Shown piece by piece: positions 23,416 to 50,227 of a stretch of DNA of 64,000 bases (the stretch's first letter is position 1; the number at the start of each line of letters is the position of its first letter). The translations under genes were made by a program, and so were the position numbers. The stretch is from positions 58,713 to 122,712 of IMG/VR virus record IMGVR_UViG_3300020583_000224. The stretch is one strand, 5' to 3'. The notes below the pieces were generated by a model. The model searched no databases. It worked only from the letters and a program-made list of their open reading frames with translations, and was not told the DNA's origin. Origin of the DNA: a virus.

Positions 23416-25631
23416 TGGCACGACACGACACGACACGCGGCTACCTCGAGGCTCAGCCGCTCCAAATTCCCGATAGCGCCCAGCAATCCACCCTTCCCGT
23501 CGCGTGGCATGGCGCGCCTCCGGCCGTCACGCAACATGGAGAACTCGCAGCTCAGGCGCCGAATCAGGCTGCTCCGCAGTCGTACTACTCGGTCAGTCCG
23601 GGCCAGATCCTCCCACACGCGCAGGCCCACGACCTCCCCTGGCACATGGCCGGACTGCTCGACCACGAACTGCCCCGCCCGAAGCCCGAATGGGTCAAAC
23701 TCCTCAACGACTACCACGTGCCCGGGGTCGCCGGGACGCTCGTGTTCACGGCGTTCGGGTGGATGGCGCACAAGGAGCCGATGCACCCGTGGATGGCCGG
23801 GCTGTTCATCGGCGTGGGCGTCACCGGGCTCGTCGGCGCCTGGTGGGCGCACCACGAGCACGGCCAGGACGCGGACCCGCACTTCACCAAGGGCCTGGCG
23901 GGTCTTGGCGTTGCCGCCATCTGCGGCGGTGCCGCCGTTGGCGCCGGGCCCACGGGGATCTCGTTCATGCTGGCGTTCGCGCTGGCGGTCGGCGCCGTCG
24001 TCGGCGTTCACCAGTACCGCGAGCACAAGCGCCACGTGAAGGCGGTGACGGCAGTCGAGTTCCACGCTGCCGTCAACCAGGGGAAGGTTCACGTGGTCGG
24101 CCCCGGGCCGGCGGCGGCAACGTCGAACATTGTGGACGGTCGGGTGCTATCCCAGGAGGAGGCGCTGCTGCACCGGGCGTTCGCGGACATGGGCATCGAG
24201 CCGATCACGCTGCGCGGGTTCGAGCGCCTCGACAAGGACGCGTTCAACGTGATCGTCGGACTGCCGGGTACTTCCACGAACGACCCGGAGACGGTGATCG
24301 GCAAGCGGGAGGTGCTCAAGTCGAACCTGCGCGCCCGGCAGATCGCGGTGGAGGCGAGCTCCGAGCACGGCCACGAGATCAAGCTCATGGTGCGCTACGG
24401 CGCGACCAACCCGCTGCTCGAGACCATCGCCTGGAAGGGCCCCAACACCGACGACGTCGCCGAGCCGATCAGGACCAGCGTCGATTTGCACGGCGACGAA
24501 GTCATGGTGCGATTCGCCAACCGGCACACCCTCTACGCGGGTAAGACCCGGCGCGGAAAGTCGGCCGGCATCGCCTCGGCCATTTGCTCAATCGGCGCCA
24601 CGAAGAATGCTCAGCTCTGGCTAATGGATTTGAAGCCGGGTCAGGTCTCGCTCGGCCCGTTCGCCGCGATGGCGGCCCAGTCGGTCGAGGGCAGGAACCA
24701 GCAGGAGTGCGTGGAAAGGGCGTCCCTGATGATTCTCGCCGCCGTCGCGGCGATGGAGGAGAACGGGCAAATCCTCAAGGACGAGCGGGAGTCGACCGGG
24801 AAGCCGGTGTACGAGTGGGATGTCAACAGGCACGGCGCGGCGATCGTCCTGGTCATCGACGAGCTTGCCTACCTGCTGCGGCTGGACCCGGAGATCTACG
24901 AGGGCTGGGTTACGATCATGCAGGTCGGGGCGGGCCTCGGCGTGTGGGTGATCGGCGCTACGCAGTCTCCGTCGGCGAAGGCCCTCGGCGGCACCACTGA
25001 CGGCTCCAGTCAGTTCGGCAACGTGTTCTGCTACCAGTGCAAGGGCGCGACCCAGGCCGGGATCATCCTGGGCCAGGGGTCGTGGAGTGAGGGTTGGAAG
25101 CCGAACGAGCGGAACCTGCCGCTGCAGGGCATGCACCTGCTGCGCACCCCGGAGCACATCCACCCCGTGGTCATGCGGAACGAGTTCGTCGAGCCGGGCG
25201 ACGCGATGGACATTGCCGACCGGTACGCCGACTCCATTCCGGCGCTGCATCCGCGGACGGCGGCGGCGGTCGATCGCGTACTGAACATGGGGCTGCCGAC
25301 GAAGAGCGGGCCGGGCCCTGGTCGCGGCGGGAAGCCGTCCGGGCCCGTCGACAGCGAGATCGTGTACACGCGCCCGTATCTCGTGCCGGAGTATCCCGAC
25401 GGCGACGTGGTCGAGGCGCACCACCGCGCGGCGTGGGAGGCCTTCAAGGAGATGGGTTCGGCAACGATCGACGAGCTCAAGGCACTCCGACTCGACCAGC
25501 ACCGTTCACGCGAGTCGTGCAAGACCGCCTTGCAGGTGTTCGTCAGGCACGGCGGCGCGACCTCAGAGATGGACGGCCGTACCGAGCGATTCCACTGCCT
25601 TGTCGGTTCCGAGCGCCGCAAGGAGGCGTGA
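23415..25631 (+). CDS. FtsK/SpoIIIE-type DNA translocase (TraB-like)
   Basis: 738 residues. Hydrophobic segments between residues 100 and 200 anchor it in the membrane. The motor domain has Walker A GKTRRGKS near residue 376, VIDELAYLLRLD as Walker B near residue 480, and GVWVIGATQSPSAKA as the sensor stretch. The C-terminal 70 residues form a winged helix (ATIDELKALRLDQHRSRESC). In actinomycete plasmids and integrative elements one such hexameric pump moves double-stranded DNA between cells. A virion-encoding element has no obvious need for it. Confidence 0.9.
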   Translation: MARHDTTRGYLEAQPLQIPDSAQQSTLPVAWHGAPPAVTQHGELAAQAPNQAAPQSYYSVSPGQILPHAQAHDLPWHMAGLLDHELPRPKPEWVKLLNDYHVPGVAGTLVFTAFGWMAHKEPMHPWMAGLFIGVGVTGLVGAWWAHHEHGQDADPHFTKGLAGLGVAAICGGAAVGAGPTGISFMLAFALAVGAVVGVHQYREHKRHVKAVTAVEFHAAVNQGKVHVVGPGPAAATSNIVDGRVLSQEEALLHRAFADMGIEPITLRGFERLDKDAFNVIVGLPGTSTNDPETVIGKREVLKSNLRARQIAVEASSEHGHEIKLMVRYGATNPLLETIAWKGPNTDDVAEPIRTSVDLHGDEVMVRFANRHTLYAGKTRRGKSAGIASAICSIGATKNAQLWLMDLKPGQVSLGPFAAMAAQSVEGRNQQECVERASLMILAAVAAMEENGQILKDERESTGKPVYEWDVNRHGAAIVLVIDELAYLLRLDPEIYEGWVTIMQVGAGLGVWVIGATQSPSAKALGGTTDGSSQFGNVFCYQCKGATQAGIILGQGSWSEGWKPNERNLPLQGMHLLRTPEHIHPVVMRNEFVEPGDAMDIADRYADSIPALHPRTAAAVDRVLNMGLPTKSGPGPGRGGKPSGPVDSEIVYTRPYLVPEYPDGDVVEAHHRAAWEAFKEMGSATIDELKALRLDQHRSRESCKTALQVFVRHGGATSEMDGRTERFHCLVGSERRKEA

Positions 25632-34922: not shown

Positions 34923-37900
34923 GTGCCGCTGCCCGGCGACCTCAACAAGATCAGCGTCACGGCGACCTATCAGGACGCTGCGGGCAACCCGCTCGCCGGG
35001 ACCGTCACGTTCACCCCGTCGGCAGACCTCGCTGACTCGACCGGACGCGTCATCCTGCGTGCCGAGCCGATCCCCGCACAGGTCGTTGGCGGCGTCATGA
35101 GCCCGCCATCGCTCGCCTGCACGGATAACGCAAATATCGCCCCGACCGGGTGGACTTGGGCCGTCGTCGAGTACATCTCCGGCGCCAGCGCGAACGTCGC
35201 CACCCGCTCCTACTCGGTCCTGCTGCCGCACACTCTCGGTAGCACCGTGGATCTTTCGACGCTCTCCCCGGTCGTGCCGCAGCCCGGCGTCACCAACTAC
35301 CTGCTCGCGACGAACAACCTCAGCGACCTGTCGAATGCGGCGACCGCCCGCACAAACCTGGGCCTCGGCACCGCCGCGACATCTGCCGCGACGGCGTTCG
35401 CGCAGACCGCGAACAACCTCTCGGATCTGGCCTCGGCGTCCACGGCGCGCACGAACCTGGGGCTCGGGGGAGCGGCCACCGAGAACGTCGGAACCGGCGC
35501 GGGCACTGTCGCGGCCGGGAATGACAGTCGGATCACCGGGGCGCTGCAAACGACCGGCGGCACGATGTCCGGGCCGATCGCCATGGGCAGCAACAAGGTC
35601 ACCGGCTTGGCGAATGGCACCGCCGGGTCTGATGCGGCGGCGTTCGGGCAGATTCCCACCTCGGCCAGCGGCATCGGCGGCCTGCTCGCCGCGAACAACC
35701 TGAGCGACGTTGCGAACGTCACGACGGCGCGCGGGAACCTCTCGGCCGCCGCGTCCGGCTCGAACTCGGACATTACCGCGCTCACCGGTCTGACCACGGC
35801 GCTGCCTGTCTCCGAGGGTGGTACCGGGTCCACGACCGGCCCTGCGGCTCAGGTCGCGCTCGGCGGCGTGTCCTGGTTCAACGTCCAAGCCCCCGCCTAC
35901 GGGGCCAAGGGCGACGGCAACATGGTCGCCGACGCGGCGATGACCGCGACGAGCGCGACGCTCACCTCCGCGACCGCGAACTTCACCGCAGGGGATGTCG
36001 GCAAGCTGGTCCAGGTGCGCGGCGCCGGCGCCGCGGGCGCCGACCTGAACACGACGATCAGCGGGTTCACCAACTCGACGACCGTCACGCTCACGGTCGC
36101 CGCTGGAACCACCGTCAGCGCGGCCACGGCCGTGTACGCCACGGACTCCGCCGCAGCCTGCCAGTCCGCGTTCACCGCCGCGCAGGGCGTGTACTACGGC
36201 ACGACCTACGTGCCGCCGGGCATCTACATGTGGTCGACGTTCGTGTCGATCAGCAAATGCATGCGGATCATGGCGAACGGCGCGCTGATCATCACGACGA
36301 ACTCCGGCGCCCTGAACCTCACCAACACGTTCTTGAGCCCCACGCCCGGGGTGTTCGGGCGCGGCAACGGCCTGGTCATCGAGGGCCTGGAGCTCGACTG
36401 CACCGGCGGCCACAACATCTACAACGTCAACCTGAGCAACTTCAGTTGGCGCGACATGGTCCTCACGCAGCGCTCCTCGAACTTCAGCGCCGTCTGGCAC
36501 GACACGACCGGCACGAACTTCATCGGCGGCGACATCCGCAACGTCCTGACGTACGTGTACGGCTCGGCGCGCACTATCCAGGCCTGGCACCTCGTCTCCC
36601 ACGTCGGCGGCGGCCTCGCCCTGACGAAATGGACCAGGTGCCTGTTCCAGAACCAGGGCGCCGACACCGCGCAGTTCCTGCTGTGGACCGAGGCACGCGG
36701 CGGCACGAACTACACCAACGGGCTCGAGCTCGACAGCTGCGTGTTCACTTCCGCCACTGGCGGCGGCGCCGCGTTCTGGAGCGCGCAGGGCGTCGTGCTC
36801 GTCAACTGCCGGGTCGTCAACTCGAACAACACTGTCAACGGCAACTCGATCTACCGGGTCGGCACCAACACCGGCTCCGGCGTGTCCACGTACACCAGTC
36901 AGGGCGTCACGATCGTCGGCTGCGGCAGGGACCTGCCCGGTCCTGACGGCTCGACCACGTGGGACGTGCACCTCGACTCGACCGTCGACCAGGTCGTCAT
37001 CGAGGCCTACGAGTGCAGGTTCCGCAGCACGGACGCGGCGAAGACCCCGTTCTTCAACCTCAACTCGGCGACCCACGTGCTCGTGCTCGACTGCCCGACC
37101 GCGGTCATCACCAACCCGGGCAACGCCATCCAGATCCCGGTCACCGGCGACGGCAACACGCCCGGCACCGGCGACGGCGCGGTCAGCATCCCGTCGCTCA
37201 CCCTCGGCGCGGCGCTCCCGATCGGGTCCGGCGGCACCGGACAGGCCACCCCGCAGGCCGCGATCAACGCGCTCACGGGCACGCAGTCCGCAGGCAAATA
37301 CCTGCGTTCGGACGGCACCAACGCGAGCCTCGCTTCGATCCAGGCAGCCGACCTGCCCGCCGCGACCACCTCGGTTCAGGGCGCGGTCGTCATCGACGGC
37401 ACCGCCGCCGACATCGCCGCCCTCGGCACCCAAGCCGCAGGCGCCATCGGGAAGTCTGCGGACGCGGGCCACGTCCACCCCACCGCGGGCCTGGTCGACA
37501 CCGCCACCACGCAGAACGTCGGCGGCACGAAGACGTTCACCGGCGAAATCGTCGTTCCGACCCCGGTCAACGCCGGCGACGCCGTCACCAAGGCGTACGC
37601 GGACGCGATCTCCCTCGGCCTGTCCATCAAGGGGTCGGTGCAAGAAGCAACGGCCGCAGCGCTGCCCGCGAACACGTACAGCAACGGCGCCTCGGGCGTC
37701 GGGGCGACACTGACCGGCAACGCCACCGGGACGCTGACGGTCGACGGCGTGACGGTCGCACTCAACGACCGGGTCCTGGTGCAAAACGAGGCGACCGGCG
37801 CGAACAACGGCATCTACCTGTGCACCACGGCCGGGGCGACCGGAGTCGCCTACGTCCTGACCCGCGCCACCGACATGAACACCGCCGCGAAGATCCCCGG

Positions 37901-39056
37901 GGCGTTCACGTTCGTGGAGGCTGGCACCGTGAACTCGGGCGCCGGGTTCGTAGTGGCCTCCGCCGGGCCGTTCACGGTCGGCACGGCTGCGATCAGCTTC
38001 ACCCAGTTCTCCGGAGCCGGGGAGATCACGGCCGGGACCGGCCTGTCCAAGTCCGGCAACACGATCTCGCTCTTCACGCCGGTGGCCTCCGGCAATCTTC
38101 CGGGAGCGACCGCCAGCGCTCAGGGCGCCGTCATCCTTGACGGTACCGCGACGGACATCGCGCCCCTGGGGACCCAGGCCGCTGGTGCGGTCGGCAAAGC
38201 GGCCGACGCCGGGCACGTGCATCCCCTGTCCGCGACGGGCAACGTCCAGACCTTCACAGCGAACGGCACCTGGAATAAGCCAGCGACAGCGACGCAGGTC
38301 ACGGTGATCCTCATCGGCGCGGGTGGCGGCGGAGGATCCGGCGCGGTCGAGAACTCGGGCACGGTCGCCTCCGGCGGCGCCGGTGGCGGCGGCGGCGGTT
38401 ACACGATCAAATCGTTCCCGGCCGCGCTGCTCAGCTCCACCGAGACCGTCACCGTCAGCGCAACCGGCGGAACCGGCGGCGCCGCGGTCGGCACCGCCGC
38501 CTCGGCGGGCAACGCGGGCGGGGCTGGTGGCGCCACCAGCTTCAAGAGCACCTCATGGGCAGTCGCCAACGGCGGTGCGGGCGGCGGCGCAGGCACCACA
38601 GGCGCCGCCACCGGCGGAACCGGCGGCGTCGGGTCCATCAACGGCGGCACCGGCGCAAGCTCCAACGCGGCTGGCGGTGCAGGCGGCACCGGGTCCGGCT
38701 CCAACCAAGGCGGCTCCGGCGGCGGCGCGGGCGGCGGCATGGCCACCACCCCCGCCAACGTCGCAGGCGGCGCGGGCGGCTTGATTCAGTCCTCGTCCGG
38801 CAACCTGGGCGGCACCGCAGGCACATCAGGCGGCGGCTCGGGCGGCGCAGGCAACTCGGCCGGCGTCAACGCGCCCGTCGCAGGAACCGGCGGAGGCGGC
38901 GGAGGAACCCTCACCGCTGGAACCGGCGGCAGCGGCGGCCTAGGCGGCAACTACGGCGGAGGCGGTGGCGGCGGCGCAGGAGCCACCACGGGCCAGAGTT
39001 CGGGTGCAGGCGGAAACGGCGCAGGCGGACTCGCCGTCATCATCTCCCTGAATTAG
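34923..39056 (+). CDS. Large tail fibre with pectate-lyase-like and glycine-rich domains
   Basis: 1377 residues from a GTG. Residues 1 to 110 form an attachment domain. Repeats NNLSDL with TARTNLGLG follow near 128, 161 and 258. From about 318 (APAYGAKGDG) to 800 is a right-handed beta-helix of pectate-lyase type, often with polysaccharide-binding or cutting activity. Two linkers with GTQAAGA and DAGHVHP (near 830 and 1075) and GGTGQATPQAAIN follow. The last 250 residues are glycine-rich (GGAGGGGGGY) and probably form a trimeric tip. It recognises the host surface. It lies upstream of the packaging genes, away from the other tail genes. Confidence 0.88.
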   Translation: MPLPGDLNKISVTATYQDAAGNPLAGTVTFTPSADLADSTGRVILRAEPIPAQVVGGVMSPPSLACTDNANIAPTGWTWAVVEYISGASANVATRSYSVLLPHTLGSTVDLSTLSPVVPQPGVTNYLLATNNLSDLSNAATARTNLGLGTAATSAATAFAQTANNLSDLASASTARTNLGLGGAATENVGTGAGTVAAGNDSRITGALQTTGGTMSGPIAMGSNKVTGLANGTAGSDAAAFGQIPTSASGIGGLLAANNLSDVANVTTARGNLSAAASGSNSDITALTGLTTALPVSEGGTGSTTGPAAQVALGGVSWFNVQAPAYGAKGDGNMVADAAMTATSATLTSATANFTAGDVGKLVQVRGAGAAGADLNTTISGFTNSTTVTLTVAAGTTVSAATAVYATDSAAACQSAFTAAQGVYYGTTYVPPGIYMWSTFVSISKCMRIMANGALIITTNSGALNLTNTFLSPTPGVFGRGNGLVIEGLELDCTGGHNIYNVNLSNFSWRDMVLTQRSSNFSAVWHDTTGTNFIGGDIRNVLTYVYGSARTIQAWHLVSHVGGGLALTKWTRCLFQNQGADTAQFLLWTEARGGTNYTNGLELDSCVFTSATGGGAAFWSAQGVVLVNCRVVNSNNTVNGNSIYRVGTNTGSGVSTYTSQGVTIVGCGRDLPGPDGSTTWDVHLDSTVDQVVIEAYECRFRSTDAAKTPFFNLNSATHVLVLDCPTAVITNPGNAIQIPVTGDGNTPGTGDGAVSIPSLTLGAALPIGSGGTGQATPQAAINALTGTQSAGKYLRSDGTNASLASIQAADLPAATTSVQGAVVIDGTAADIAALGTQAAGAIGKSADAGHVHPTAGLVDTATTQNVGGTKTFTGEIVVPTPVNAGDAVTKAYADAISLGLSIKGSVQEATAAALPANTYSNGASGVGATLTGNATGTLTVDGVTVALNDRVLVQNEATGANNGIYLCTTAGATGVAYVLTRATDMNTAAKIPGAFTFVEAGTVNSGAGFVVASAGPFTVGTAAISFTQFSGAGEITAGTGLSKSGNTISLFTPVASGNLPGATASAQGAVILDGTATDIAPLGTQAAGAVGKAADAGHVHPLSATGNVQTFTANGTWNKPATATQVTVILIGAGGGGGSGAVENSGTVASGGAGGGGGGYTIKSFPAALLSSTETVTVSATGGTGGAAVGTAASAGNAGGAGGATSFKSTSWAVANGGAGGGAGTTGAATGGTGGVGSINGGTGASSNAAGGAGGTGSGSNQGGSGGGAGGGMATTPANVAGGAGGLIQSSSGNLGGTAGTSGGGSGGAGNSAGVNAPVAGTGGGGGGTLTAGTGGSGGLGGNYGGGGGGGAGATTGQSSGAGGNGAGGLAVIISLN

Positions 39057-40195: not shown

Positions 40196-42805
40196 ATGAC
40201 CGCCACCGTGGAGTGGGTCGAATACGCCGCCCGCGCGTTCGAAGTCGTCAGGCCCCCGGCGTGGCGCGACATCGCAAGACCCGAGCAGCTCGCACCCGAG
40301 GGCGACTGGCTCGTCTGGGCGTATATCGCCGGGCGAGGTTGTGTCGCAGGCGATACTCGAATCTACCTGCCGCTTGAGGATCGGCACGAGCGGATCGACA
40401 TCCTAGCCTCAGCGGGCCGCGCAATCACGGTCCTCGCCCTGGCATCCAGTGGACCGCGTCCGGTCGCCACGGACGGCGCCCCATTCGTCAAGGGCGTCGC
40501 GCCGCTGTACGAGGTGACGACGTCCGACGGGCACGTCATCACCGCGACGGATCGGCATCGGTTCCTTGGTCCGCAAGGATGGCTGCGACTCGCTGACGTG
40601 CGCGCCGGACAGCTTCTTGCCGCAGGAGCTCCCGTTGCACAGCAGGCAGCTTCTTGCGGCCAGTCAACGTCGCCCGCAGGTGGTCCGCGTTCGACGGGAA
40701 CACCCGCAGGTTCGCCGGATCGTTGTCCGACGTGTCTCCGTTGCGATGGTCAACGACCTCTCCCGGGAGCAGCATTCGGCCTAGTTCGCGTTCCATCACC
40801 AAGCGGTGCATCCGCACGTACCCCTTCACTGCTTGAGGGTGGTCCGGCTGGTGCTGCAGGATGTAGCCCTGCTCATCTACCGCATAGCCTCCGCGCCAGA
40901 ACGGGTTCCGCTCCGGCCGGGCTTTCGCAGGAAGACGATCTAGTCCAAGCTCGACCAGTCGATCCCGGACCGTCTCGTCGTTACAGCCCAGCGCTGCAGC
41001 CATCTCCCGGCACGACATGCCCTGCGCATGAAGGTCGCGGAGATCGCCCTCGGGGATTTGAAGACGCCTGGCTTTCGACTGCTTTGCCCGCTGCTGCGGA
41101 GTCTTCTCGCGGCCTCGAAGCTGGACGCCAGCCCGCTCAAGACGCCGCTGCACGGTCTGGTGCGACACTCCAGCGTCTTTGGCTATGCCCTTCGCCGACT
41201 CGCCAGCCTCATAGCGAGCCCGCATCTCCTCGGCGGTCAACTGCGCCAGAAACTCCTGGCGCAGCGTCACGCCGGCTTCTCGCAGTCGCCGGGCAACCGT
41301 TTGCGGTGTGGTCTGGTACTCGATCGCGATCGACCGCATCGGCTGGCCAGCCAGATACTGAGCTAGCGCCTCAGGCGGCAACGAAATCTTTGGCATGTTT
41401 GGATTGTATCGCCTGGACGCGGGTTGTGACGGTACGACCTGTAGGAACGGGCGTCTTCTACGACCTCACGGTTCCCGGTGCGGAGAACTACGCAGCCGAG
41501 GGAATGTGGCACCACAACAGCGGAAAGACGCGCTCCGCCGCCGAATGGGTCCACGAGAAGGCCACGCTCAACCCGGGCGCCCGCATTGCCCTCGTCGGCC
41601 GCACTCCGGCTGACGTCCGCGATGTCATGATCGAGGGCGAGTCGGGGATTCTTGCCTGCGCGGGCGAGGATCGCCCCATCTATGAGTCGACCAAGCGGAA
41701 GCTGACGTGGGCCAACGGGTCCACTGCGCACGCCTACTCTGCCGAAGTCCCCGACCAGCTCCGAGGCCCGCAGCACGGGTTTGCGTGGTGCGATGAGCCT
41801 GCCGCCTGGACGGATGCCCGCAAGGGCGACGTGCTCGACACGGCGTGGAACAACCTGCTGCTCGGCCTGCGTCTCGGGGCGAACCCGCAGTGCGTGGCCA
41901 CCACGACCCCGAAGCCCAACGCGCTGATCCGCACCCTGCTCGGCCGCGCCTCCACCGTCGTCAGCCGCGGCTCGACCTACGACAACCTCGCCAACCTCGC
42001 GCCCTCCTTCCGCGAGCACGTGCTCGCCACCTATGAGGGCACCAGGATCGGCCGCCAGGAGCTCCTCGGCGAACTGCTCGAGGACGTCGAAGGCGCCCTG
42101 TGGACGCTCGACCGGATCGACGCTGGCCGAGTCGCGGTCGCGCCCGACATGGTGCGCGTCGTCGTAGCCGTAGACCCGTCCGGCGGATCCGGGCCCAACA
42201 ACGACGAGCAGGGCATCGTCGTCGCTGGCCTCGGCGTTGACGGCGCCCTGTACGTGCTCGCGGACCGGTCGTGCAAGCTGTCCCCGCACGGCTGGGCGTC
42301 GAGGGCGATTGCGGCTTACCGCGAGTTCGCGGCCGACCGTATCGTGGCTGAGCGCAACTTCGGCGGCGAGATGGTCGAGTCGACGATCCTCCAGGTCGAC
42401 AAACTCGTGCCCGTCAAGGTGATCACCGCATCGCGGGGCAAGGTGCAGCGCGCCGAGCCGATCGCCGCGCTCTACGAGCACACGCCCGCCCGCGTCCACC
42501 ATGTTGGGGCGCTGCCTCAACTCGAGGACCAGCTCACCACCTGGACCCCGCAGGACGGCACGAGCCCCGACAAACTCGATGCGATGGTGTGGGCCTTGAC
42601 CGAGTTGACGGATGGCCTCGGCGCGGACGCGTGGATCGAGTACATGAAGCGCCGCGCCGAAGAGGTGGGCATGCAGCCGCGCGAGCGGGCGCCAGAGGTC
42701 CTCGAACCGCCCGAGCCGCGGCGCGATCCCGAACCTGAACCGGATGACCCGGTAGCCCGCCTGCGTGCCGCCCGTACTGCCGCACTCCGCGCCCAACGCA
42801 GATAA
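40196..42805 (+). CDS. terL: Terminase large subunit precursor containing an intein
   Basis: 869 residues as translated; removal of the intein (Cys49 to Asn441) leaves about 476 residues, the usual length. The intein splits Walker A: AGRG before it and SGKTR after it. CDEPAAW near precursor residue 527 is the Walker B region. The RNase H-like nuclease begins near 655 with VAVDPSGGSG and includes DAMVWALTEL near 796. The enzyme cuts concatemeric DNA and pumps it into the capsid; without splicing the ATPase site cannot form. The 3' extein matches the style of its neighbours, while the intein centre does not. Confidence 0.93.
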   Translation: MTATVEWVEYAARAFEVVRPPAWRDIARPEQLAPEGDWLVWAYIAGRGCVAGDTRIYLPLEDRHERIDILASAGRAITVLALASSGPRPVATDGAPFVKGVAPLYEVTTSDGHVITATDRHRFLGPQGWLRLADVRAGQLLAAGAPVAQQAASCGQSTSPAGGPRSTGTPAGSPDRCPTCLRCDGQRPLPGAAFGLVRVPSPSGASARTPSLLEGGPAGAAGCSPAHLPHSLRARTGSAPAGLSQEDDLVQARPVDPGPSRRYSPALQPSPGTTCPAHEGRGDRPRGFEDAWLSTALPAAAESSRGLEAGRQPAQDAAARSGATLQRLWLCPSPTRQPHSEPASPRRSTAPETPGAASRRLLAVAGQPFAVWSGTRSRSTASAGQPDTELAPQAATKSLACLDCIAWTRVVTVRPVGTGVFYDLTVPGAENYAAEGMWHHNSGKTRSAAEWVHEKATLNPGARIALVGRTPADVRDVMIEGESGILACAGEDRPIYESTKRKLTWANGSTAHAYSAEVPDQLRGPQHGFAWCDEPAAWTDARKGDVLDTAWNNLLLGLRLGANPQCVATTTPKPNALIRTLLGRASTVVSRGSTYDNLANLAPSFREHVLATYEGTRIGRQELLGELLEDVEGALWTLDRIDAGRVAVAPDMVRVVVAVDPSGGSGPNNDEQGIVVAGLGVDGALYVLADRSCKLSPHGWASRAIAAYREFAADRIVAERNFGGEMVESTILQVDKLVPVKVITASRGKVQRAEPIAALYEHTPARVHHVGALPQLEDQLTTWTPQDGTSPDKLDAMVWALTELTDGLGADAWIEYMKRRAEEVGMQPRERAPEVLEPPEPRRDPEPEPDDPVARLRAARTAALRAQRR
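40340..41518 (+). mobile_element. Intein in the terminase Walker A motif, with an antisense endonuclease gene in its centre
   Basis: 393 codons. Block A is CVAGDTRIYL at the start; block B is TSDGHVITATDRHRF near precursor residue 112; block F is VGTGVFYDLTVPGAENYAAEG (in part) and block G is MWHHN, with Ser442 as the first C-extein residue. These are all parts of a class 1 splicing domain. Between blocks B and F, where an endonuclease domain normally sits, the plus frame is open for about 280 residues but is low-complexity (Pro, Ala, Ser, Arg). The opposite strand there encodes an HNH endonuclease. Confidence 0.92.
40539..41396 (-). CDS. HNH homing endonuclease encoded antisense inside the intein
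   Basis: 285 residues from an ATG at 41396, with TACAAT about 12 nt upstream as a possible -10 box. The N-terminal half has several resolvase-like HTH units (QPMRSIAIEYQTTPQTVARRL, ESAKGIAKDAGVSHQTVQRRL and MSCREMAAALGCNDETVRDRL, each in part). The C-terminal part is an HNH domain: MHRLVMERELGR, then GEVVDHRNGDTSDNDPANL and NADH. It differs from its surroundings in codon use. It fills the intein endonuclease slot on the opposite strand, so it probably cuts intein-free terminase genes and drives homing of the whole intein. Confidence 0.9.
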   Translation of the reverse strand: MPKISLPPEALAQYLAGQPMRSIAIEYQTTPQTVARRLREAGVTLRQEFLAQLTAEEMRARYEAGESAKGIAKDAGVSHQTVQRRLERAGVQLRGREKTPQQRAKQSKARRLQIPEGDLRDLHAQGMSCREMAAALGCNDETVRDRLVELGLDRLPAKARPERNPFWRGGYAVDEQGYILQHQPDHPQAVKGYVRMHRLVMERELGRMLLPGEVVDHRNGDTSDNDPANLRVFPSNADHLRATLTGRKKLPAVQRELLRQEAVRRARQRVAAILADQGTDADPSR

Positions 42806-42817
42806 AGGGGGCCCGGC

Positions 42818-45800
42818 GTGCCCGATGTGATCACCGCTGCGGCCACGCCCAACACTCCCCGGATTCGGGTGCGTGAGCGCATCGGCGGCGGGTTCATGCG
42901 CCTCGCAAAGGTATTCGGCACCGCAGTCCCCGCGGACATTGCCGCAGCCGAGACCGCCGCCGGCATGGACTCGTCCACCCCGTTCTCCCCGGGCGCGCCC
43001 CTCTCGCCCTACGACGGATACTCGCGCACCCCGCGCAGCCAGAACTTCGTCCCCCAAGTCAACGTCACCACCCGGCCGCGCACCCACGAACGCGTCTCGT
43101 TCGAAACCCTCAAGGGCCTGATCGACGCCTACGACATCGCCACCATGGCGATCTGGCACCGCATCGACTCGCTGCGCTCCCTCGACTGGTCGCTCGTCGC
43201 GGCCGACGGATTCGAGGGCGACGTGGCCGACGCGGTCGCGATCGGCATGTCCGTGCTCGCCAAGCCCGACGGGCAAACCCCGTTCGGGGCGTGGCTCGCC
43301 GAATGGGTGTACGACATCCTCGCGTTCGACGCCGGCACCCTGTGGCGGATGCGGAACCGGGCCGGGCAGGTCGTCGGGCTGCGCGTGGTTGACGGCAGCC
43401 TGATCGCGCCGCTGCTCGACGACTGGGGCAACACGCCCCAGGCCCCGGCCCCGGCGTTCGTGCAATACATCAACGGCTTGCCGTGGAACTGGCTGACCAC
43501 GAACGACCTGATCTACAGGCCGTTCCGCAAGCGTCCCGACTCCCCGTACGGGCGGCCGCCGCTCGAGTCGATCCTGCTCAATGCGAACACCGACCTGCGG
43601 TTCCAGGCGTACTTCCTGCAGCGGTTCACCGAAGGCAACCTGCCCGCCGCGTTCGCCAGCGCCCCGGACTCGTGGACCCCGCAGCAGATCGAGCAGTTCC
43701 AGGAGTACTGGGACGGGTTCATCCTCGGCGACCAGTCGTTCAAGTCGCAGATCCGGTGGATCCCCCCCGGCTCGAAGATCGAGTGGAGCAACGAGAAAGA
43801 CTTCACCGACGCGTTCTCGCTGTTCATGATGCGCAAGACGCTCGCCGCATACCACGTGGTGCCGTCCGACATGGGCATCACCGACACCGTCAACAAGTCA
43901 ACCGGTGAAACCCAGCGCGACGTCCAGCACCGCATCGGCGACGTGCCCCTCGCCCGGCACGTCTCCGACATCCTCACCGCGTTCCTCCAAGACGACCTGC
44001 ACCTGCCCGTCAAGCACCAGTTCGACTTCGGCGAGGAACAAGACGACCGGCTCCAGTTGGCGCAAGCCGACGACATCTACATCAAGAACGGCACCGTCTC
44101 CAACTCCGACATCCGGGAACTGCGGTTCGGCCTCTCGGAGCCCGAAGGCAAGCGGGTCCCGCGGTTCGTCTACTCCAACCGCGGCGGACCCATCCCACTG
44201 TCTGCGCTCGAAGCCGTGGCGGGGCCGATCGACTTCGAATCCGGCGCCCCGCAGCCTGGCGCGCCGCTGCCGCACACCGTGTTCCAGCCCGTCGAAGGCG
44301 TCGAAGGCAACCCGCCGACCCCGCGTCCGCCGCTCGCGGTCGAGCAGTACGGTCCGGGCGCGCTGCCCGTCGCGGCACCGCAGTCCGTGCCCGCGCTGCC
44401 GGTTGCACCCGTGCAGGCCGAATTGAAGGCGGCCCCGGTCGCGAAGGACGGGCCTACTGCGGGAATCACGGCAGCGACCGGGATCACGTCCTACGACCTC
44501 GTCGGACGCCACGACGACGAAGACGACGACGAGGACGAGGCTGTCGCCAAGGAACTCGCCGCATACCGGCGTTTCGCCAAGGCCCGGCGCCGCGACGGCA
44601 GATGGCGCGACTTCCAGTTCCAGGCCGTAGACGCCGCCACCGCGCGCAGCCTCAACGAGGCCGGCCACCAGTCCGTGCTCGCCAAGCAGTCCGGCATCCC
44701 GGGACTGACCAAGCGCTCCGGCATGATCTCGCTCGACCTGCCCGCAGGCCTCGTGCCGACCGTACCGGGCGGCGTGAACGACCACCATGTGACCGTCGTG
44801 TACCTCGGTCCGGACGTGGCGAATGAAGAGTTCGACACCGCCTGCGACCGCGCCGAAGCCGCGGCAGCAGCCTGCCCCGGACCGCTCACCGGCACCATCG
44901 CAGGGATCGACACGTTCCCGCCGTCCAGCGGCAGCGATGGCAAGATTCCCGCGTTTGTGCCCGTCACGCTGCCCGGCGTCGAGCAGGTACGCGCGTCGCT
45001 CGAAGACCTCTCAGCGAGTGAGCACACCGACTACCACCCGCACGTGACGCTCGCATACCTCGACGAAGGCGACCCGCTGCCGGACCCCGTGCCGCCGACG
45101 CTCGTCACCTTCACCCACCTTACTGTGCACCGCGGCGACGAGACCCGCAGCTTCCCGCTCGGGCCGCGCATGCTCGGCCTGGCGAAGGCCGCGGCGGGAA
45201 GTGAACCGGGCCCAAAAGCTGACGCCTCCGCCAAGGAGGCGTCCAGCCACTGGCCCGGATGGGACTACGACGAGACCGCCGCAGACCACTGGGCACGGAA
45301 ACTCGCCGACGGCTACGTTGCCGCGTTGAGCGTCGCCCGGGCGCAGCGGATCGCGGCCAGCTTCCTCGCCGCGCACCCCGGCGACGGCGAGAAGCACACC
45401 AAGGCCGAAACCGCCGCGATCGCCGCAGCGCTACTCGCAGCGGCCCTCGCGCACCTCGAGGACCAAAACCTCGACCTCACCAGCGCCGCCACCGCAACAC
45501 TCCAAGGCCTCTACACCGACGCCTACCTGATCGGCGCCGCCAGCGGCAACGCAGTCATCGACGGCGGCAAGCCCGTGCTCACAGGCTGGTCGCCAGGCAA
45601 GACCGACGAAGCGCACGGGCTCATCGAGGCGCTCGCGCTCGGCACCGGCCTGTCCGCGCTGCTGCGGCGCGCGCCCGAAACCGCGGCGGCCATGTCCAGC
45701 ACGCGCATGGCCGTGCTCGCCAGCGCGCTCGCGGCAGGCGCGGCAGCCGGACAATCAGCCGCGATCATCGCAGGGTCGCTCATCGCAGTACTCAAGGCGG

Positions 45801-46045
45801 GGTGGCGGTCGCTGACCGCTGCCATCACCGAAGTCACCAGCGCATCCAGCGCAGGCGCGAGCGACGCCTACCAGAAGCGCGGCATCACCCTCTACGAGTG
45901 GGCCCTCGACCCCAGCGTCAACAACTGTCCGATCTGCATAACGAACGCCAACTCGGCGCCCCGAAAGTTCGGGCAGAAATGGCCCAGCGGCCAGGCCGCC
46001 CCGCCAATCCACGGCCGCTGCCGCTGCGCGCTCGTCCCGGCCTAG
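42818..46045 (+). CDS. Portal protein fused to 2H-phosphoesterase and MuF-like domains
   Basis: 1075 residues from a GTG with AAAGGGGG upstream. Residues 80 to 470 are a portal: FVQYINGLPWNWLT, LIYRPFRKRPDSPYG, AYHVVPSDMGITD and RDVQHRIGDV are typical. Residues 635 to 775 match the 2H phosphoesterase fold, with HVTVVYLG at 657 and HVTLAYLD at 742 as the two HxT motifs. Residues 860 to 1075 are MuF-like and end in CPICITN and HGRCRC. The portal forms the DNA gate; MuF assists head assembly and can be injected. The central 2H domain is unexpected. Confidence 0.9.
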   Translation: MPDVITAAATPNTPRIRVRERIGGGFMRLAKVFGTAVPADIAAAETAAGMDSSTPFSPGAPLSPYDGYSRTPRSQNFVPQVNVTTRPRTHERVSFETLKGLIDAYDIATMAIWHRIDSLRSLDWSLVAADGFEGDVADAVAIGMSVLAKPDGQTPFGAWLAEWVYDILAFDAGTLWRMRNRAGQVVGLRVVDGSLIAPLLDDWGNTPQAPAPAFVQYINGLPWNWLTTNDLIYRPFRKRPDSPYGRPPLESILLNANTDLRFQAYFLQRFTEGNLPAAFASAPDSWTPQQIEQFQEYWDGFILGDQSFKSQIRWIPPGSKIEWSNEKDFTDAFSLFMMRKTLAAYHVVPSDMGITDTVNKSTGETQRDVQHRIGDVPLARHVSDILTAFLQDDLHLPVKHQFDFGEEQDDRLQLAQADDIYIKNGTVSNSDIRELRFGLSEPEGKRVPRFVYSNRGGPIPLSALEAVAGPIDFESGAPQPGAPLPHTVFQPVEGVEGNPPTPRPPLAVEQYGPGALPVAAPQSVPALPVAPVQAELKAAPVAKDGPTAGITAATGITSYDLVGRHDDEDDDEDEAVAKELAAYRRFAKARRRDGRWRDFQFQAVDAATARSLNEAGHQSVLAKQSGIPGLTKRSGMISLDLPAGLVPTVPGGVNDHHVTVVYLGPDVANEEFDTACDRAEAAAAACPGPLTGTIAGIDTFPPSSGSDGKIPAFVPVTLPGVEQVRASLEDLSASEHTDYHPHVTLAYLDEGDPLPDPVPPTLVTFTHLTVHRGDETRSFPLGPRMLGLAKAAAGSEPGPKADASAKEASSHWPGWDYDETAADHWARKLADGYVAALSVARAQRIAASFLAAHPGDGEKHTKAETAAIAAALLAAALAHLEDQNLDLTSAATATLQGLYTDAYLIGAASGNAVIDGGKPVLTGWSPGKTDEAHGLIEALALGTGLSALLRRAPETAAAMSSTRMAVLASALAAGAAAGQSAAIIAGSLIAVLKAGWRSLTAAITEVTSASSAGASDAYQKRGITLYEWALDPSVNNCPICITNANSAPRKFGQKWPSGQAAPPIHGRCRCALVPA

Positions 46046-46086
46046 ACCACGGCGAGGGCCATCTAGCCTGAGGAACGGGGGCGCCC

Positions 46087-46659
46087 ATGTGCCTATCGTG
46101 CGGATGTGGCTTGACGGAGAACGACCACGGCGACCCGCGGCACCTGACCCTCGCAGCTCTGCAAGCCGCAGCCGACGCGTCCGGCGTCAGCCTCGCCGTC
46201 GCCGCATCGAACATCCTGCGCACCGTCACCGGGACGCTCGGCGACGACGAGCCGCAGGACGGCCCCCCCGACCAGTTCCTATATGGGGTTGCATACCAGG
46301 CGGGCCCCGATCCACGGATCCGGATGGGCGCGGACGGCGGCCGAGACTACTTCGCTCCGCGATCTCTGGAGCTAGCTGCATGGTCATTCATGTTGGGTGG
46401 CCACCAGCACGGCCTGTTCCACGCCGACGGTACCGAAGGCGCGGCGCGAACCGTCGAATCGGGCATCTACCGGAACCCGATCCCGTGGGTCATCGACGAC
46501 GACCTGATCGTGCGTAAGGGCGACTGGACGATTGGGGTCCTTGTGGACGACGAGGGCTGGGCCTTGCACAAGCAGGGGAAGATCGGCGGCCTGTCGCCGC
46601 AGGGTGGCGGCAAGCGACGGCGCCCCAAGCCCCGCTCCAATCCTTTCGGCATCACGTAG
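46087..46659 (+). CDS. XkdF-like head protein
   Basis: 190 residues from an ATG. It begins with MCLSCGCG, a Cys cluster. The part from about residue 90 (SFMLGGHQHGLFH, then VESGIYRNPIPW and KGDWTIGVLVDDEGWALHKQGKIGG, in parts) follows the XkdF pattern of PBSX-like phages, thought to be the head maturation protease. It lies between the portal and the scaffold-type gene, where a prohead protease is expected. Confidence 0.72.
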   Translation: MCLSCGCGLTENDHGDPRHLTLAALQAAADASGVSLAVAASNILRTVTGTLGDDEPQDGPPDQFLYGVAYQAGPDPRIRMGADGGRDYFAPRSLELAAWSFMLGGHQHGLFHADGTEGAARTVESGIYRNPIPWVIDDDLIVRKGDWTIGVLVDDEGWALHKQGKIGGLSPQGGGKRRRPKPRSNPFGIT

Positions 46660-46669
46660 GAGCTGAGCC

Positions 46670-48649
46670 ATGACCGAAGAGATCCCCGAGGACATGACTG
46701 AGATCTACGACGCTGACGTCCCGCGCGTGGACCTCGTTGGCGCCGCAGCCAATGGAATTCCCCGGTTCCTGATCGCGAAGGGCCAGGACGGTGCCGGACT
46801 CTTCGACCCGGGCTATGTGCGCAACCTGATCGCTAAGTCGGAACCCGAGACCACGGAGACGGTGACCATGAGCGGTAGTCCCGCGGCGATCGCGGCCCTC
46901 ATCCACGGCGCGCCCGTCCGCAAGGCCGAGACGCCTGCGGCCGAGGACGACGTGGCCAAGGCTGAGGCCTCTACCAAGTCGATGAACGACCGACCTGACA
47001 GCGACTTCGCGTACGTGGAGCCCGGCGGCAAGAAGGACGAGTCCGGCAAGACTGTGCCGCGCTCGCTGCGCCACTTCCCGATCTACGACGCCGCGCACGT
47101 CCGCAACGCCCTGTCGCGGGCACCGCAGTCCCCGTTCGGCGACAAGGCCATGCCCAAGATTCGGGCCGCAGCCAAGAAGTTCGACATCGACGTGTCCAAG
47201 GAGACCGCCGCAGCCCCCGAGCAGACCGAGGTGACGAAGGACATGGACATGCCGATGGACGACGAAGGCGGCATGGACCCGACCGTCGTCCTCGCCGAAC
47301 CCGAGGAGACGCCCGACGGCGACGCCGGCGACCCCGGATCCCCGGCGTGGGAGGCGATCGACGCGGCCACCGCCCGCAAGTGGACCGCCATCGCAGCCCG
47401 CCTCCGCAGCGCCCTCGGCGTCATGGCCGACCGCGAATCCCTCGAGGCCGCGACCGTCGACCCCGACGACGCCGAAGCCGCCATGGACCTCGACGACGCG
47501 GCATGCGCCGTCGACTACGTCATCGACACGCTCGCCGGGTTCGCCGTAGACGAGCAGGCCGAAGCCGACGACGCCGTCATGGCGATGGTCGGCAAGTCCA
47601 TCGGCGCCCTCGACACCGCGCACCTCGACACCGTCGAATCCCTCGGTGCCGTACGCAAGGCCGGCCGCACCCTGTCCGCGAGCAACGAATCCGCGCTGCG
47701 GCAGGCGATCCAGGCCCTACAGCAGATCCTCGCGAGCCTCCCGGCCGCACCCGTCACGAAGGAGGCCGGGGAGCCGGTCGCCAAGACCGCCAACGAGGAG
47801 AGCGATATGCCGACCCCCACCCCGTCCGAAGACGTCACCGCAGCGTCCGGCCAGGAGCCCGCCATGGGCGCCGCGTCGCTCGAGCCGAAGCCCGTCGCCG
47901 GACAGGCCGTCACCGAGATGGCCAAGGCCGCCGAGCCCGCGCCGGTCGCCAAGGCCGAGAAGACCCCGCAGGTCGCGATCTACGACGCCAACGGCAACCT
48001 CGTCGGCACCGTCGACCCGGCTGAGATCACCATGCTCGCCCCCGCCAAGGCCCCCGAGGCCGCCGCCAAGGCCGACGACGGCGCGATGCCGGAAGAGCCC
48101 GCCGCACCCGCGGCCGAGGCCCCCGCCGCCACCCCCACAGACCTGACGCCCGCCCCCGCGGCGTCCGTCGGCACCCCCGCCGACGCAGTACCGGCCGACG
48201 ACGACACCGTCGCCAAGGCCGCCGACACCAGCACCACCGAGGACCCGCAGAACGTGCTCAAGGGCAGCATCACGGAACTGGTCAAGGCAGCGTACGCCGA
48301 GCAGAGCGCCCCCACGGGCGAGCTCATCAAGTCGCTGGAGGACCGGAACCGCAAGCTGGAGGAGCAGAACGCGGCACTCGTGAAGCACACCGCCGCCCTC
48401 GAGGAGCGGCTCACGAAGGTCGAAAACCAGCCCGCCGTCATGGCCATCGCGTCCAACGGCGCCATCCCGCCCGCGCACCTCATGCGCGGCCAGGACCACG
48501 GCGCGCCCGCCGACATCAGCAAGGCCCAGGCCCTGCGCACGGCGTTCAAGGCGACCGACGACGCGCCCACGCAGCAGTCCCTCGCCCGCGACATGAACGC
48601 CCTCGCGATCGAGCAGCTGCAGGCCATCCACGCGGCAGGCCCGCGCTAA
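46670..48649 (+). CDS. Scaffold/maturation-type head protein
   Basis: 659 residues from an ATG with GGAGCTGAG upstream. It begins VPRVDLVGAAANGIPRFLIAK, a signature of XkdF-type proteases. Residues 105 to 180 (SDFAYVEPGGKKDE, then RHFPIYDAAHVRNALSRA and PKIRAAAKKFDI) look like the DUF6582 domain. From residue 200 to 560 it is Ala/Pro/Glu-rich and disordered. Near 550 there is a coiled coil (SLEDRNRKLEEQNAALVKH). The form suits a scaffold removed by proteolysis before capsid expansion. Confidence 0.75.
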   Translation: MTEEIPEDMTEIYDADVPRVDLVGAAANGIPRFLIAKGQDGAGLFDPGYVRNLIAKSEPETTETVTMSGSPAAIAALIHGAPVRKAETPAAEDDVAKAEASTKSMNDRPDSDFAYVEPGGKKDESGKTVPRSLRHFPIYDAAHVRNALSRAPQSPFGDKAMPKIRAAAKKFDIDVSKETAAAPEQTEVTKDMDMPMDDEGGMDPTVVLAEPEETPDGDAGDPGSPAWEAIDAATARKWTAIAARLRSALGVMADRESLEAATVDPDDAEAAMDLDDAACAVDYVIDTLAGFAVDEQAEADDAVMAMVGKSIGALDTAHLDTVESLGAVRKAGRTLSASNESALRQAIQALQQILASLPAAPVTKEAGEPVAKTANEESDMPTPTPSEDVTAASGQEPAMGAASLEPKPVAGQAVTEMAKAAEPAPVAKAEKTPQVAIYDANGNLVGTVDPAEITMLAPAKAPEAAAKADDGAMPEEPAAPAAEAPAATPTDLTPAPAASVGTPADAVPADDDTVAKAADTSTTEDPQNVLKGSITELVKAAYAEQSAPTGELIKSLEDRNRKLEEQNAALVKHTAALEERLTKVENQPAVMAIASNGAIPPAHLMRGQDHGAPADISKAQALRTAFKATDDAPTQQSLARDMNALAIEQLQAIHAAGPR

Positions 48650-48730: not shown

Positions 48731-50227
48731 GTGAGCAACACCATGCAAGACGTGACCGAGGAGACCCTCGCCGCGATCACCAAGGCCCAGACCACGGGCA
48801 TCATGGAAGCCACCGGCTTCTACTCGTACGACCTGTCCGGCCTGATCAGCCTGATTCCGGTGGTCACGCCGTTCCGTGACCACGTCGCCCGCAAGCAGTC
48901 CCCTGACGGGAACCCCTTCGCGATCTGGAGGGCGATCCTCAACCTGACGGACTCGCAGCCCGACGGCTCCATGGGCTTCGACTACGCGGCCAACGAGGTC
49001 ATCGTCTCCGAGCAGGACTTCCAGTCCCGCTACAAGCCGACCGGCTACGCCGGGTTCGTCACCCAGGACGCGTTCGACCTCGCCAAGGGGTACACGGACG
49101 TCTACGCCGAGTCGACGTTCAACACCCTCAACCAGGTCCTGATCATGGACGACCGCAAGATGCTCGGCGCGCAGTCTTTCGCGCTGGCGGCGGCCACCGC
49201 CCCGACGCTGACCCAGCACACGACCGGTGGCACCATCGGCACCGTCACCTCGTACGTCGGCGTCGCTGCCCGTACCGGCAGCGGCTACTACTACGGGTCC
49301 GGCAATAGCCAGGGCGCGAGCAACTCGACCACGTTCGGCTCCGGCACCACCAACTCGATCACCGCGACCACCGCGGCCGTGAGGGGTGCGGTCTGCTACG
49401 ACTGGTTCTACTCGGCCAACGGCACGACCTGGTACTACTACACCACCACCACCGTCAACACGGTGACGATCACCACGCCGATCACGTCGAACAACGCGCT
49501 CCCCACCACCCTGCCCGACCTGCAGCAGACCTGGTGGAAGGGCTCGAACTCCTCCGCGATCCCCACCTACAACGGCTCCGCCGACAACGGTTCGGCCAAC
49601 AGCACCGACTACGACGGATTCCTCTCCAGCCTGTCCGGCGACTACAACACCGCCGGCCAGTGGGTGCAGCCCGGCACCGGCACCACCAACCCGTCGGTGT
49701 GGAACTCGCTCAACGGTGCCGGCCTGACGCTGTCCGGCGGCTCCGTCAACGAGATCGAGAACGACCTGTTCCTGCCGCTGTGGAACCAGGTCAAGTGCTC
49801 CCCGACCGCGCTGATGATGAACGCCGCGCAGGCGCAGGAGATCGCGAACCTCGTGCTCGGCTCGAACTCGGCGACCACGTTCCTGAACACCGACGCCTCG
49901 GGCCGTATCTCGGTCACGGCCGGCGGCCGTGTCGGCGAGCTCGTCAACGCCCCCGCTGGCGGTGTGACGGTGCCGATCGAGGTGCACGTCTCCCTGCCCC
50001 CGGGTACGATCATCGCGCGCTCCGACCGGGTTCCGTTCCCGCAGGCGAACATCAGCTCCGTGCTGGAGTTCCGCACCCTGCGTGACACCGCGCAGTTCGA
50101 CTACGGCATCTCCCGGGTCGCGGGCACCGCCGGTGGCGGGCCAAGGCGTGAATATGAAATCCGCACCATCGGAGCCATGATCAACAGGGCTCCCGTGGCG
50201 GCAGGCGTGCTCAGCAACATTGCCTGA
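48731..50227 (+). CDS. Major capsid protein (HK97-like fold)
   Basis: 498 residues from a GTG with GAAAGAAGG upstream. The opening (LSGLISLIPVVTPFRDHVARK, in part) and the end (ISSVLEFRTLRDTAQFDYGISR, in part, then IRTIGAMINRAPVA) suit the E-loop and P-domain of an HK97-type capsid. Residues 170 to 330 form a Ser/Thr/Tyr/Asn-rich insertion (GSGYYYGSGNSQG, VCYDWFYSANGTTWYYY), probably a surface domain. Position after scaffold and before a decoration protein, with strong terminators on both sides, supports the call. Confidence 0.88.
   Translation: MSNTMQDVTEETLAAITKAQTTGIMEATGFYSYDLSGLISLIPVVTPFRDHVARKQSPDGNPFAIWRAILNLTDSQPDGSMGFDYAANEVIVSEQDFQSRYKPTGYAGFVTQDAFDLAKGYTDVYAESTFNTLNQVLIMDDRKMLGAQSFALAAATAPTLTQHTTGGTIGTVTSYVGVAARTGSGYYYGSGNSQGASNSTTFGSGTTNSITATTAAVRGAVCYDWFYSANGTTWYYYTTTTVNTVTITTPITSNNALPTTLPDLQQTWWKGSNSSAIPTYNGSADNGSANSTDYDGFLSSLSGDYNTAGQWVQPGTGTTNPSVWNSLNGAGLTLSGGSVNEIENDLFLPLWNQVKCSPTALMMNAAQAQEIANLVLGSNSATTFLNTDASGRISVTAGGRVGELVNAPAGGVTVPIEVHVSLPPGTIIARSDRVPFPQANISSVLEFRTLRDTAQFDYGISRVAGTAGGGPRREYEIRTIGAMINRAPVAAGVLSNIA

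Follow-up and report, generated by a model that had tools for sequence, protein, structure and literature searches.

A phage head protein with an enzyme domain between its two structural parts raises the question of what the enzyme does and why it is kept there. The gene in question lies in the window, which is the whole stretch of DNA analysed (64,000 nucleotides, the right-hand 64 kb of a viral record of 122,712 bp, IMG/VR record IMGVR_UViG_3300020583_000224). It occupies positions 42818 to 46045 on the plus strand. The open reading frame (ORF) has a GTG start and encodes a protein of 1075 aa, in which Pfam and PHROG domains mark a fusion of a portal domain, a 2H phosphoesterase domain, and a MuF-like domain. 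In passages of Iyer et al. (2017), 2H domains fused to MuF or portal domains are described in phage proteins, and RNase action or the destruction of immune nucleotides is proposed for them (PMC5512222). Passages of a later paper state the same for 2H and report Nudix domains fused to MuF, portal, and capsid-processing peptidase (PMC9503650). Portal-MuF and VIP2-MuF fusions are reported for Microbacterium phages, likewise in a passage (PMC7302621). A particle-borne 2H domain acting on immune nucleotides is already a published prediction in such passages (PMC5512222; PMC9503650), and the fusion of 2H or Nudix to portal or MuF is itself known. What appears new, as far as titles, abstract beginnings, and passages of the open-licence literature go, is the recurrent exchange of Nudix and 2H at one fixed site, which was not found there. 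In this study, we favour, with reserve, the reading that the portal and MuF parts of this head protein enclose a fixed, exchangeable slot, whose enzymatic payload is here the 2H domain.

Results

Exchange of the 2H cassette for a Nudix domain

As judged from the sequence comparisons, the exchange of the cassette with Nudix is the most informative fact about the locus, and it is visible only when relatives are compared. A search with the whole fusion recovered 29 viral loci (designated by L numbers), two of which end before the slot. The slot is reached in 27 loci and holds Nudix in 23, 2H in three, and both in one. The Nudix box, defined by a regular expression, is complete in 22 of the 23 Nudix relatives, and L020 deviates. 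The nearest relative of the window is L004, with 82% identical portal residues; it has a Nudix hydrolase (PF00293, E 8.2e-19) where the window has 2H.

At the DNA level (blastn), the window aligns with L004 over 42908-44658 at 79.9% and over 45209-46064 at 80.9% identity. The 550 bp between them (44659-45208, plus strand) are unaligned; L004 has 508 bp there (7851-8358), which encode Nudix. Likewise, L003 (2H) and L015 (Nudix) are 85.0% identical up to L003 position 7818 and 80.6% from 8410, with the stretch between unaligned. DNA breakpoints were compared in five pairs, and these two show clean replacement on both sides, with flanks about 80-85% identical. The pattern looks like an in-frame allelic replacement of the cassette and its linkers within one gene.

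Beside the fusion gene, a second exchanged stretch was seen: window 46065-46747 and L004 9212-11032, in the protease region, are unaligned although the DNA aligns on both sides.

Portal phylogeny and cassette state

A maximum-likelihood tree was built from 40 portals (20 with 2H, 18 with Nudix, and 2 with both; the relatives came from two queries, the portal fusion and the 2H domain, and these proportions are not natural frequencies). The three cassette states need 12 changes on this tree, which is a gene tree of a portal that may itself recombine. On the well supported branches, at least 11 changes are forced when the 2H label is scored and 9 when the Nudix label is scored. Strongly supported sister pairs with different payloads are window/L004 (100/96), L003/L015 (100/99), and L086/L010 (99/97). 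A quicker tree of 46 portal rows likewise gave 12 changes. It was made after removal of loci with portal scores below 300 and of three that lack a cassette hit, namely L101 and, because the locus stops at the portal, L024 and L026; near copies or partial sequences (L099, L021, L030, L029, L028, and L022) were additionally left out of the 40-portal tree. The payload label is mildly clustered on the 40-row tree: 200 shuffles needed 15.0 changes on average, and 13 of them needed as few as the 12 observed. On the 46-row tree, as low a number was seen in 2 of 200 shuffles. As read from these trees, the slot has been repeatedly refilled during evolution with 2H or Nudix, sometimes with both.

In 160 of 231 pairs of 2H-bearing phages whose portals were scored, the 2H domains resemble each other more closely than the portals do. 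The ten pairs with the largest difference combine portals of 41-46% identity with 2H domains of 68-75% identity; at the opposite end, portal identity exceeds 2H identity by at most 16 points.

The 2H domain and its motifs

The 2H phosphoesterase domain comprises residues 627-781 (44696-45160, plus strand). Pfam family PF13563 (2_5_RNA_ligase2) matches the whole protein at residues 657-764 (E 1.1e-6, 29.2 bits, cut-off 27) and the isolated domain at E 4.2e-8 (33.8 bits, cut-off 27); in the domain alignment of 61 members, 59 score E <= 0.01 with this model, among them the window. An AlphaFold (AF2) model of window 44660-45190, made from 61 sequences, has a predicted local distance difference test score (pLDDT) of 89.9, a predicted template modelling score (pTM) of 0.83, and two beta-alpha-beta lobes. 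At E <= 0.001, the model finds 28 matches in the PDB, among them drCPDase, LigT, rotavirus VP3 phosphodiesterase, and Usb1, together with entries titled phosphoesterase, TT0787, or 2'-5' RNA ligase-like. Predicted structures of phage proteins that resemble the model include those of long proteins from actinophages, annotated as RNA ligase, as putative structural protein, or as capsid morphogenesis protein. At the sequence level, phmmer with the domain gave no hit among PDB sequences at E <= 1, and the profile of the domain alignment (A2) gave two, the best being 2fyh (0.37). The 2H profile was also run against bacterial genome contigs, in which 15 pattern matches contained no relative.

An earlier note on this DNA, made from the sequence alone, had placed two HVT motifs at residues 657 and 742 of the 1075-aa ORF, and these positions are right. 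The first HxT motif is H657-V658-T659 (44786-44794) and the second is H742-V743-T744 (45041-45049), both on the plus strand. Counting only rows that are not gapped at the column in question, H657 and T659 are each conserved in 64/64, and H742 and T744 each in 63/64; a loss of one His in most relatives was not found. The alignment has 65 rows, 60 of them distinct. Hits of <= 100 bits were excluded, as were L036, L049, L051, and L054 (same contigs as L006, L005, L003, and L008), L044 (architecture and coordinates as L040, on another contig), and L032 and L033 (the window itself). The search for relatives relied on two patterns, one with the first HxT and the other with RSGMISLD, which in part guarantees the conservation of these stretches; neither pattern includes the second HxT.

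A chance HVT pair was rejected because PF13563 scores above its cut-off and the fold is confident. The two-lobed 2H fold that had been proposed is borne out by the prediction and by comparison with LigT (VIA Z 14.1) and Acb1 (Z 10.4). The borders drawn earlier, 44720-45145, were right in location and slightly too narrow in extent: the core covers about residues 627-781, and the exchanged unit runs from 44659 to 45208. By its profile match and modelled fold, the domain is a genuine member of the 2H phosphoesterase superfamily; its HxT/HxT pair is intact, and it sits inside a head protein. Median dN/dS (nonsynonymous over synonymous rate, simple count) is 0.37 for 2H, 0.37 for portal, 0.24 for Nudix, and 0.72 for MuF; these values come from overlapping pairs at high G+C, with codon bias lowering dS and insert-bearing portals represented by one segment of two, and are a sign of constraint only.

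Architecture of the fusion protein

The earlier description as a portal-MuF fusion holding an inner 2H domain was upheld, with Phage_portal and PF13563 above their cut-offs and MuF supported by PHROG families. The portal domain comprises residues ~30-470 (42905-44227, plus strand), on the basis of phrog_2662 (E 1.7e-60, residues 70-477) and PF04860 (Phage_portal, residues 144-435, E 3.3e-11, above the Pfam cut-off). Its identity with the portals of Arthrobacter phages is 45% for Sonali and 41% for Mufasa8. A Pro/Ala/acid-rich linker, evident in the sequence itself, leads from the portal to the cassette (44228-44695, plus strand). A probable flexible linker (residues 785-809; 45170-45244, plus strand) joins 2H to the MuF-like minor head domain (residues 815-1075; 45260-46042, plus strand), which is mostly helical with a block pLDDT of 78-96. 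Phage_Mu_F matches residues 969-1072 under the Pfam cut-off (E 0.0075); the MuF part is better backed by PHROG minor-head and head-protease families (phrog_115, phrog_2841, and phrog_595; E 1.7e-7 to 4.5e-6). The C-terminal end of this domain has CxxC and HxxCRC motifs.

A model of the full-length fusion has a mean pLDDT of 64.2 and a pTM of 0.34, with the portal part poorly predicted. In this model, low-confidence stretches (pLDDT < 50) flank the 2H domain on both sides, at residues 519-574 and 587-601 and at residues 785-809. The prediction suggests that 2H is an independent domain with linkers on both sides.

Distribution among phages and hosts

A search with the 2H alignment recovered 68 viral loci. 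After removal of double contigs and addition of the window, 67 loci hold 2H at > 60 bits. The count left out L001, L002, L032, L033, L036, L049, L051, and L054, and 2H hits of <= 60 bits (L100; L101 had none); the near copies L044, L072 and L073, L098, and L099 were retained. In 46 of the 67 loci, 2H shares an ORF with portal and/or MuF, in the orders portal-2H-MuF (21), portal-Nudix-2H-MuF (4), portal-MuF-2H (9), portal-MuF-2H-Nudix (2), and other or incomplete (10); some relatives thus carry the payload after MuF, unlike the window. Both enzymes stand in tandem in L006 and in L094, L095, and L096, whose 2H domains are identical.

The ORF lacks portal and MuF in the other 21 loci. One of these, L067, has a portal-MuF ORF immediately upstream of an ORF (L067:3141-5744) that combines ADP-ribosyltransferase and 2H. 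In L042:4488-5618, a rifampin ADP-ribosyltransferase-like domain (Arr-ms) is fused to 2H in one protein, and in L055 the 2H partner has an acetyltransferase match below cut-off. One or two neighbour proteins were scanned in 14 unfused loci, leaving out six (L041, L046, L084, L097, and L072 and L073, which are apparent copies of L070). A portal, terminase, protease, or capsid family match was present in 10 of the 14, and no head or packaging match was present among the scanned neighbours of L042, L070, L074, and L077.

The fusion was also found at seven genome-contig loci: four from Streptomyces, one from Kitasatospora, one from a Catenulispora bin, and one from a betaproteobacterial bin. Nudix fills the slot in six of the seven (Streptomyces, Kitasatospora, and Catenulispora), with 46-61% identity in the best segments. 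Because these six loci are actinobacterial, the host of the window phage, a soil phage, is probably a Streptomyces-like actinobacterium. In the betaproteobacterial locus (L117:5923-8310), neither Nudix nor 2H gave a hit between portal and MuF; this speaks for a chassis that can do without the payload.

Among cultured phages, Arthrobacter phages Sonali and Mufasa8 have portal-Nudix-MuF with the same slot, and more distant 2H domains occur within the head modules of other actinophages. In Arthrobacter phages Salgado and Kovu, such a domain is fused to an XkdF-type protease. In gp12 of Streptomyces phage YDN12, it follows MuF and has both HxT motifs, and its PF13563 match (E 5e-4) stays under the cut-off. 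Two HxT motifs, also below the PF13563 cut-off, are present in a 950-aa protein of Gordonia phage GTE6 annotated as head maturation protease and in a 192-aa gene product of Gordonia phage Valary encoded between structural genes. A tblastn search with the Kovu domain reached 97 phage records, 75 of them from Gordonia, and many of the 60 matches listed are annotated RNA ligase. Public labels of head-linked actinophage 2H proteins include RNA ligase, aldolase class I, and head maturation protease, and T4 57B is labelled RNA ligase; the 2H family is hidden by such labels.

Gp12 of Streptomyces phage Xkcd426 (L119:2655-6188) is a MuF protein. The region matched by the Kovu 2H domain keeps the first HxT only, has no Pfam 2H match at E <= 0.01, and is possibly a decayed payload. 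Several relatives have large in-frame inserts within the portal domain (L008:4313-5542, L031:5840-6934, and also L080 and L085). The L008 insert has a LAGLIDADG domain and the L031 insert has a Hint match below cut-off; these two are probable portal inteins.

Candidate substrates of the 2H domain

The leading structural match of the domain model is the CPDase of D. radiodurans (drCPDase; Foldseek E 1.3e-6, VIA Z 15.3), followed by LigT (14.1), human Usb1 (13.9), and YjcG (13.8). Arabidopsis cyclic phosphodiesterase (12.0), rotavirus VP3 phosphodiesterase (11.3), phage FBB1 Acb1 (10.4), and a penguinpox cGAMP phosphodiesterase (9.8) rank lower. By the model, the fold is nearest to 2',3'-cyclic phosphodiesterases, and fold does not fix the substrate. 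The domain has what it needs to act as a 2H enzyme.

The ranking of CPDase, LigT, Usb1, and the Arabidopsis enzyme would fit an RNA-end or ADP-ribose chemistry. The domain would then share the ring-opening activities of CPDase and LigT, with ADP-ribose 1'',2''-cyclic phosphate or the 2',3'-cyclic phosphates of RNA as its substrate, and Nudix would work in the same NAD/ADP-ribose network. The exchange and co-fusion with Nudix, the ADP-ribosyltransferase fusions of L067 and L042, and a second, solo Nudix gene of the phage agree with it. This gene lies elsewhere in the record (G000:C1:55199-55753, minus strand) and scores 40 bits with the cassette Nudix profile vs 248 bits for the L004 cassette, so it is not a recently displaced cassette copy. 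Partners of the Nudix and ADP-ribosyltransferase kind point to a NAD/ADP-ribose and nucleotide-signal network, as outlined in passages of PMC9503650. No sign of an RNA-repair set was seen: neither the window nor the remainder of the record has a tRNA, and the record has no KptA match, which weakens RNA repair. The search for a T4-type RNA ligase (PF09511) was silent, but its controls were silent too, and it shows nothing either way. Overall, we consider this chemistry possible and rather unlikely.

Well below it stands a particle-borne Acb1-like enzyme that cuts the cyclic di- and trinucleotides of CBASS (cyclic-oligonucleotide-based anti-phage signalling system) on entry, which had been raised in the earlier note and went unsupported as stated. 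The fold and the HxT/HxT tetrad are common to Acb1 and the window domain, and the motifs of T4 gene 57B, which we take to be Acb1 in agreement with the motif positions, stand at 44 and 113. Nine of the 61 alignment members match the Pfam Acb1 model weakly (best E 4.5e-4). The window domain itself reaches 15.4 bits with this model (PF23474, cut-off 27) over 16 residues only, and the PDB ranking places CPDase, LigT, and Usb1 ahead of Acb1. With hhalign, T4 gene 57B aligned over 14 residues round the second motif, a weak test in which E. coli LigT aligned over just 15 residues at the first motif. Nudix enzymes, which replace 2H here, are not expected to open cyclic di- or trinucleotide rings. Acb1 motif positions 44 and 113 and its key residues, namely the base-stacking Y12, W74, F107, and W147, E141, and a C-terminal lid, are given in passages of PMC9117128. 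In a low-identity alignment, the W74 position is aromatic in 65/65 rows, the F107 position is His in 54/64 and Phe in 3/64, and W147 of the lid has no clear counterpart. The Pfam score, the structure ranking, and the 14-residue hhalign result led us to reject a specific Acb1 identity as unsupported, and an Acb1-like activity is improbable.

A toxin-like effector, acting as a metal-independent, Usb1-like RNase on host RNA, is slightly less probable again. Usb1 is among the best structures, and a passage of PMC5512222 proposes that 2H domains fused to portal or MuF act as RNases; no toxin-specific feature was seen, and a fold match alone cannot separate a Usb1-like enzyme from CPDase. A structural spacer, meaning a folded bulge kept for head assembly with catalysis irrelevant, is very improbable: the domain does lie mostly in or near head proteins and has lost a motif residue in Xkcd426, L093, and L062, but catalytic residues are retained in 63-64 of 64 rows, L117 shows no cassette, and a specific structural role would hardly allow an unrelated enzyme fold to substitute with its catalytic box kept in 22/23.

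Head-gene neighbourhood

The gene order of the head module is largely that annotated in Arthrobacter phages Sonali and Mufasa8, and all genes named in this module are on the plus strand. Upstream of the fusion lies the terminase large subunit gene (40196-42805; PF03237, PF17289, and PF14890). Downstream are an XkdF-type head maturation protease (46087-46659; PF14550, E 1.8e-5), a probable scaffold or protease-linked head protein of 659 aa (46670-48649; position and a weak phrog_3017 match), and a probable major capsid protein (48731-50227; position as in Sonali and Mufasa8, with phrog_13692, for which no function is named).

The terminase gene is interrupted by an intein (PF14890 at residues 102-441 of the ORF). 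An antisense ORF of 285 aa inside the intein (40539-41396, minus strand) has helix-turn-helix domains and an HNH_3 endonuclease domain, and a homing nuclease may therefore be encoded antisense to the intein. Just upstream of the packaging genes, a 1377-aa ORF (34923-39056) with a strong coding signal has no Pfam match at E <= 0.01. A 738-aa protein (23415-25631) with an FtsK/SpoIIIE-like match slightly under cut-off (E 5.2e-5) is a possible DNA translocase.

Discussion

If the 2H domain is a payload in an exchangeable slot, up to one copy per portal subunit could be carried inside the particle; known portals have twelve subunits. Such carriage would follow because MuF proteins are held within the head by the portal. 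According to a passage of PMC6316719, gp7, the MuF protein of SPP1, is carried into the procapsid by the portal gp6, a route also assumed for toxin-MuF fusions; on this precedent the 2H domain would lie inside the head. Delivery of the payload would then coincide with DNA entry or shortly precede it, possibly following cleavage of the linkers. In the cell, the enzyme would hydrolyse a 2',3'-cyclic, 2'-5', or cyclic 3'-5' phosphodiester bond of a small nucleotide. The likeliest reason for bringing a pre-made enzyme would be action ahead of phage gene expression, either the destruction of a host defence nucleotide or the repair or alteration of a nucleotide end. Exchange between 2H and Nudix, which are unrelated enzymes that both cut nucleotides, would track which host nucleotide matters.

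Several observations weigh against this payload reading. In three of the five DNA pairs (L086/L010, L005/L011, and L005/L014), the upstream flank aligns as far as the cassette and the downstream flank matches only in short pieces or farther off, so that the right-hand border is undefined in these pairs. The second His is lost in L093 (Arg) and the second Thr in L062 (Ile), and Xkcd426 retains one HxT only in its matching region; activity is thus not retained in every phage. Both enzymes are present in some phages and are not simple substitutes. In L077, the 2H gene stands alone: neither portal nor MuF was hit anywhere in the locus, and the one neighbour scanned is a UvsX-like recombinase. Finally, because much of the portal part also falls below a pLDDT of 50 in the full-length model, low confidence beside the 2H domain is weak evidence of linkers.

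A bolder form of the exchangeable-slot reading can be put forward only tentatively. The portal-MuF junction of these actinophages would be a dedicated slot, refilled by recombination, for counter-defence enzymes borne in the particle; 2H and Nudix payloads would disarm different nucleotide signals of the host at DNA entry, and their repeated exchange would be the trace of an arms race with host signalling. If so, the payload would predict the nucleotide defence used by the host. Should the slot prove real in particles, nature would supply a matched series of phage proteins whose main difference is the payload enzyme, and the published idea that enzymes packaged in the head disarm nucleotide immunity would become directly testable. 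In portal-MuF proteins, the slot is bounded by the motifs WRDFxF and W(P/H)GW, and reading the sequence there would be a simple way to find further entry-time enzymes.

Comparison with known systems

Among the closest enzymes in structure, the RNA 2',3'-cyclic phosphodiesterases drCPDase, LigT/ThpR, and YjcG are cellular solo proteins with 16-20% identity to the window domain. Acb1 (T4 gene 57B) shares the 2H fold and the HxT/HxT pair; it is likewise solo, and in the low-identity alignment its base-stacking positions differ or cannot be matched. The MuF polymorphic toxins of temperate phages combine, as here, a MuF carrier with a variable enzyme domain (PMC5576092). Their toxin is at the MuF C terminus (in a passage of PMC6316719), whereas the window payload precedes MuF and is also tied to the portal. 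The VIP2-MuF protein of Microbacterium phages is an actinophage enzyme-MuF fusion as well, of which a related phage has a homologue without the enzyme; its payload is an ADP-ribosyltransferase (from a passage of PMC7302621). Sonali, Mufasa8, and the Streptomyces, Kitasatospora, and Catenulispora loci have the same chassis and slot as the window, with Nudix rather than 2H as payload. The polyvalent proteins of Iyer et al. (2017) resemble the window protein in domain kinds, head context, proposed packaging, and nucleotide target, as far as passages describe them (PMC5512222; PMC9503650). Unlike the window set, these passages give neither the portal-2H-MuF order nor a recurrent Nudix exchange at one site. 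As in such head-packaged effectors, the window protein joins an enzyme domain and portal and MuF head domains in one polypeptide.

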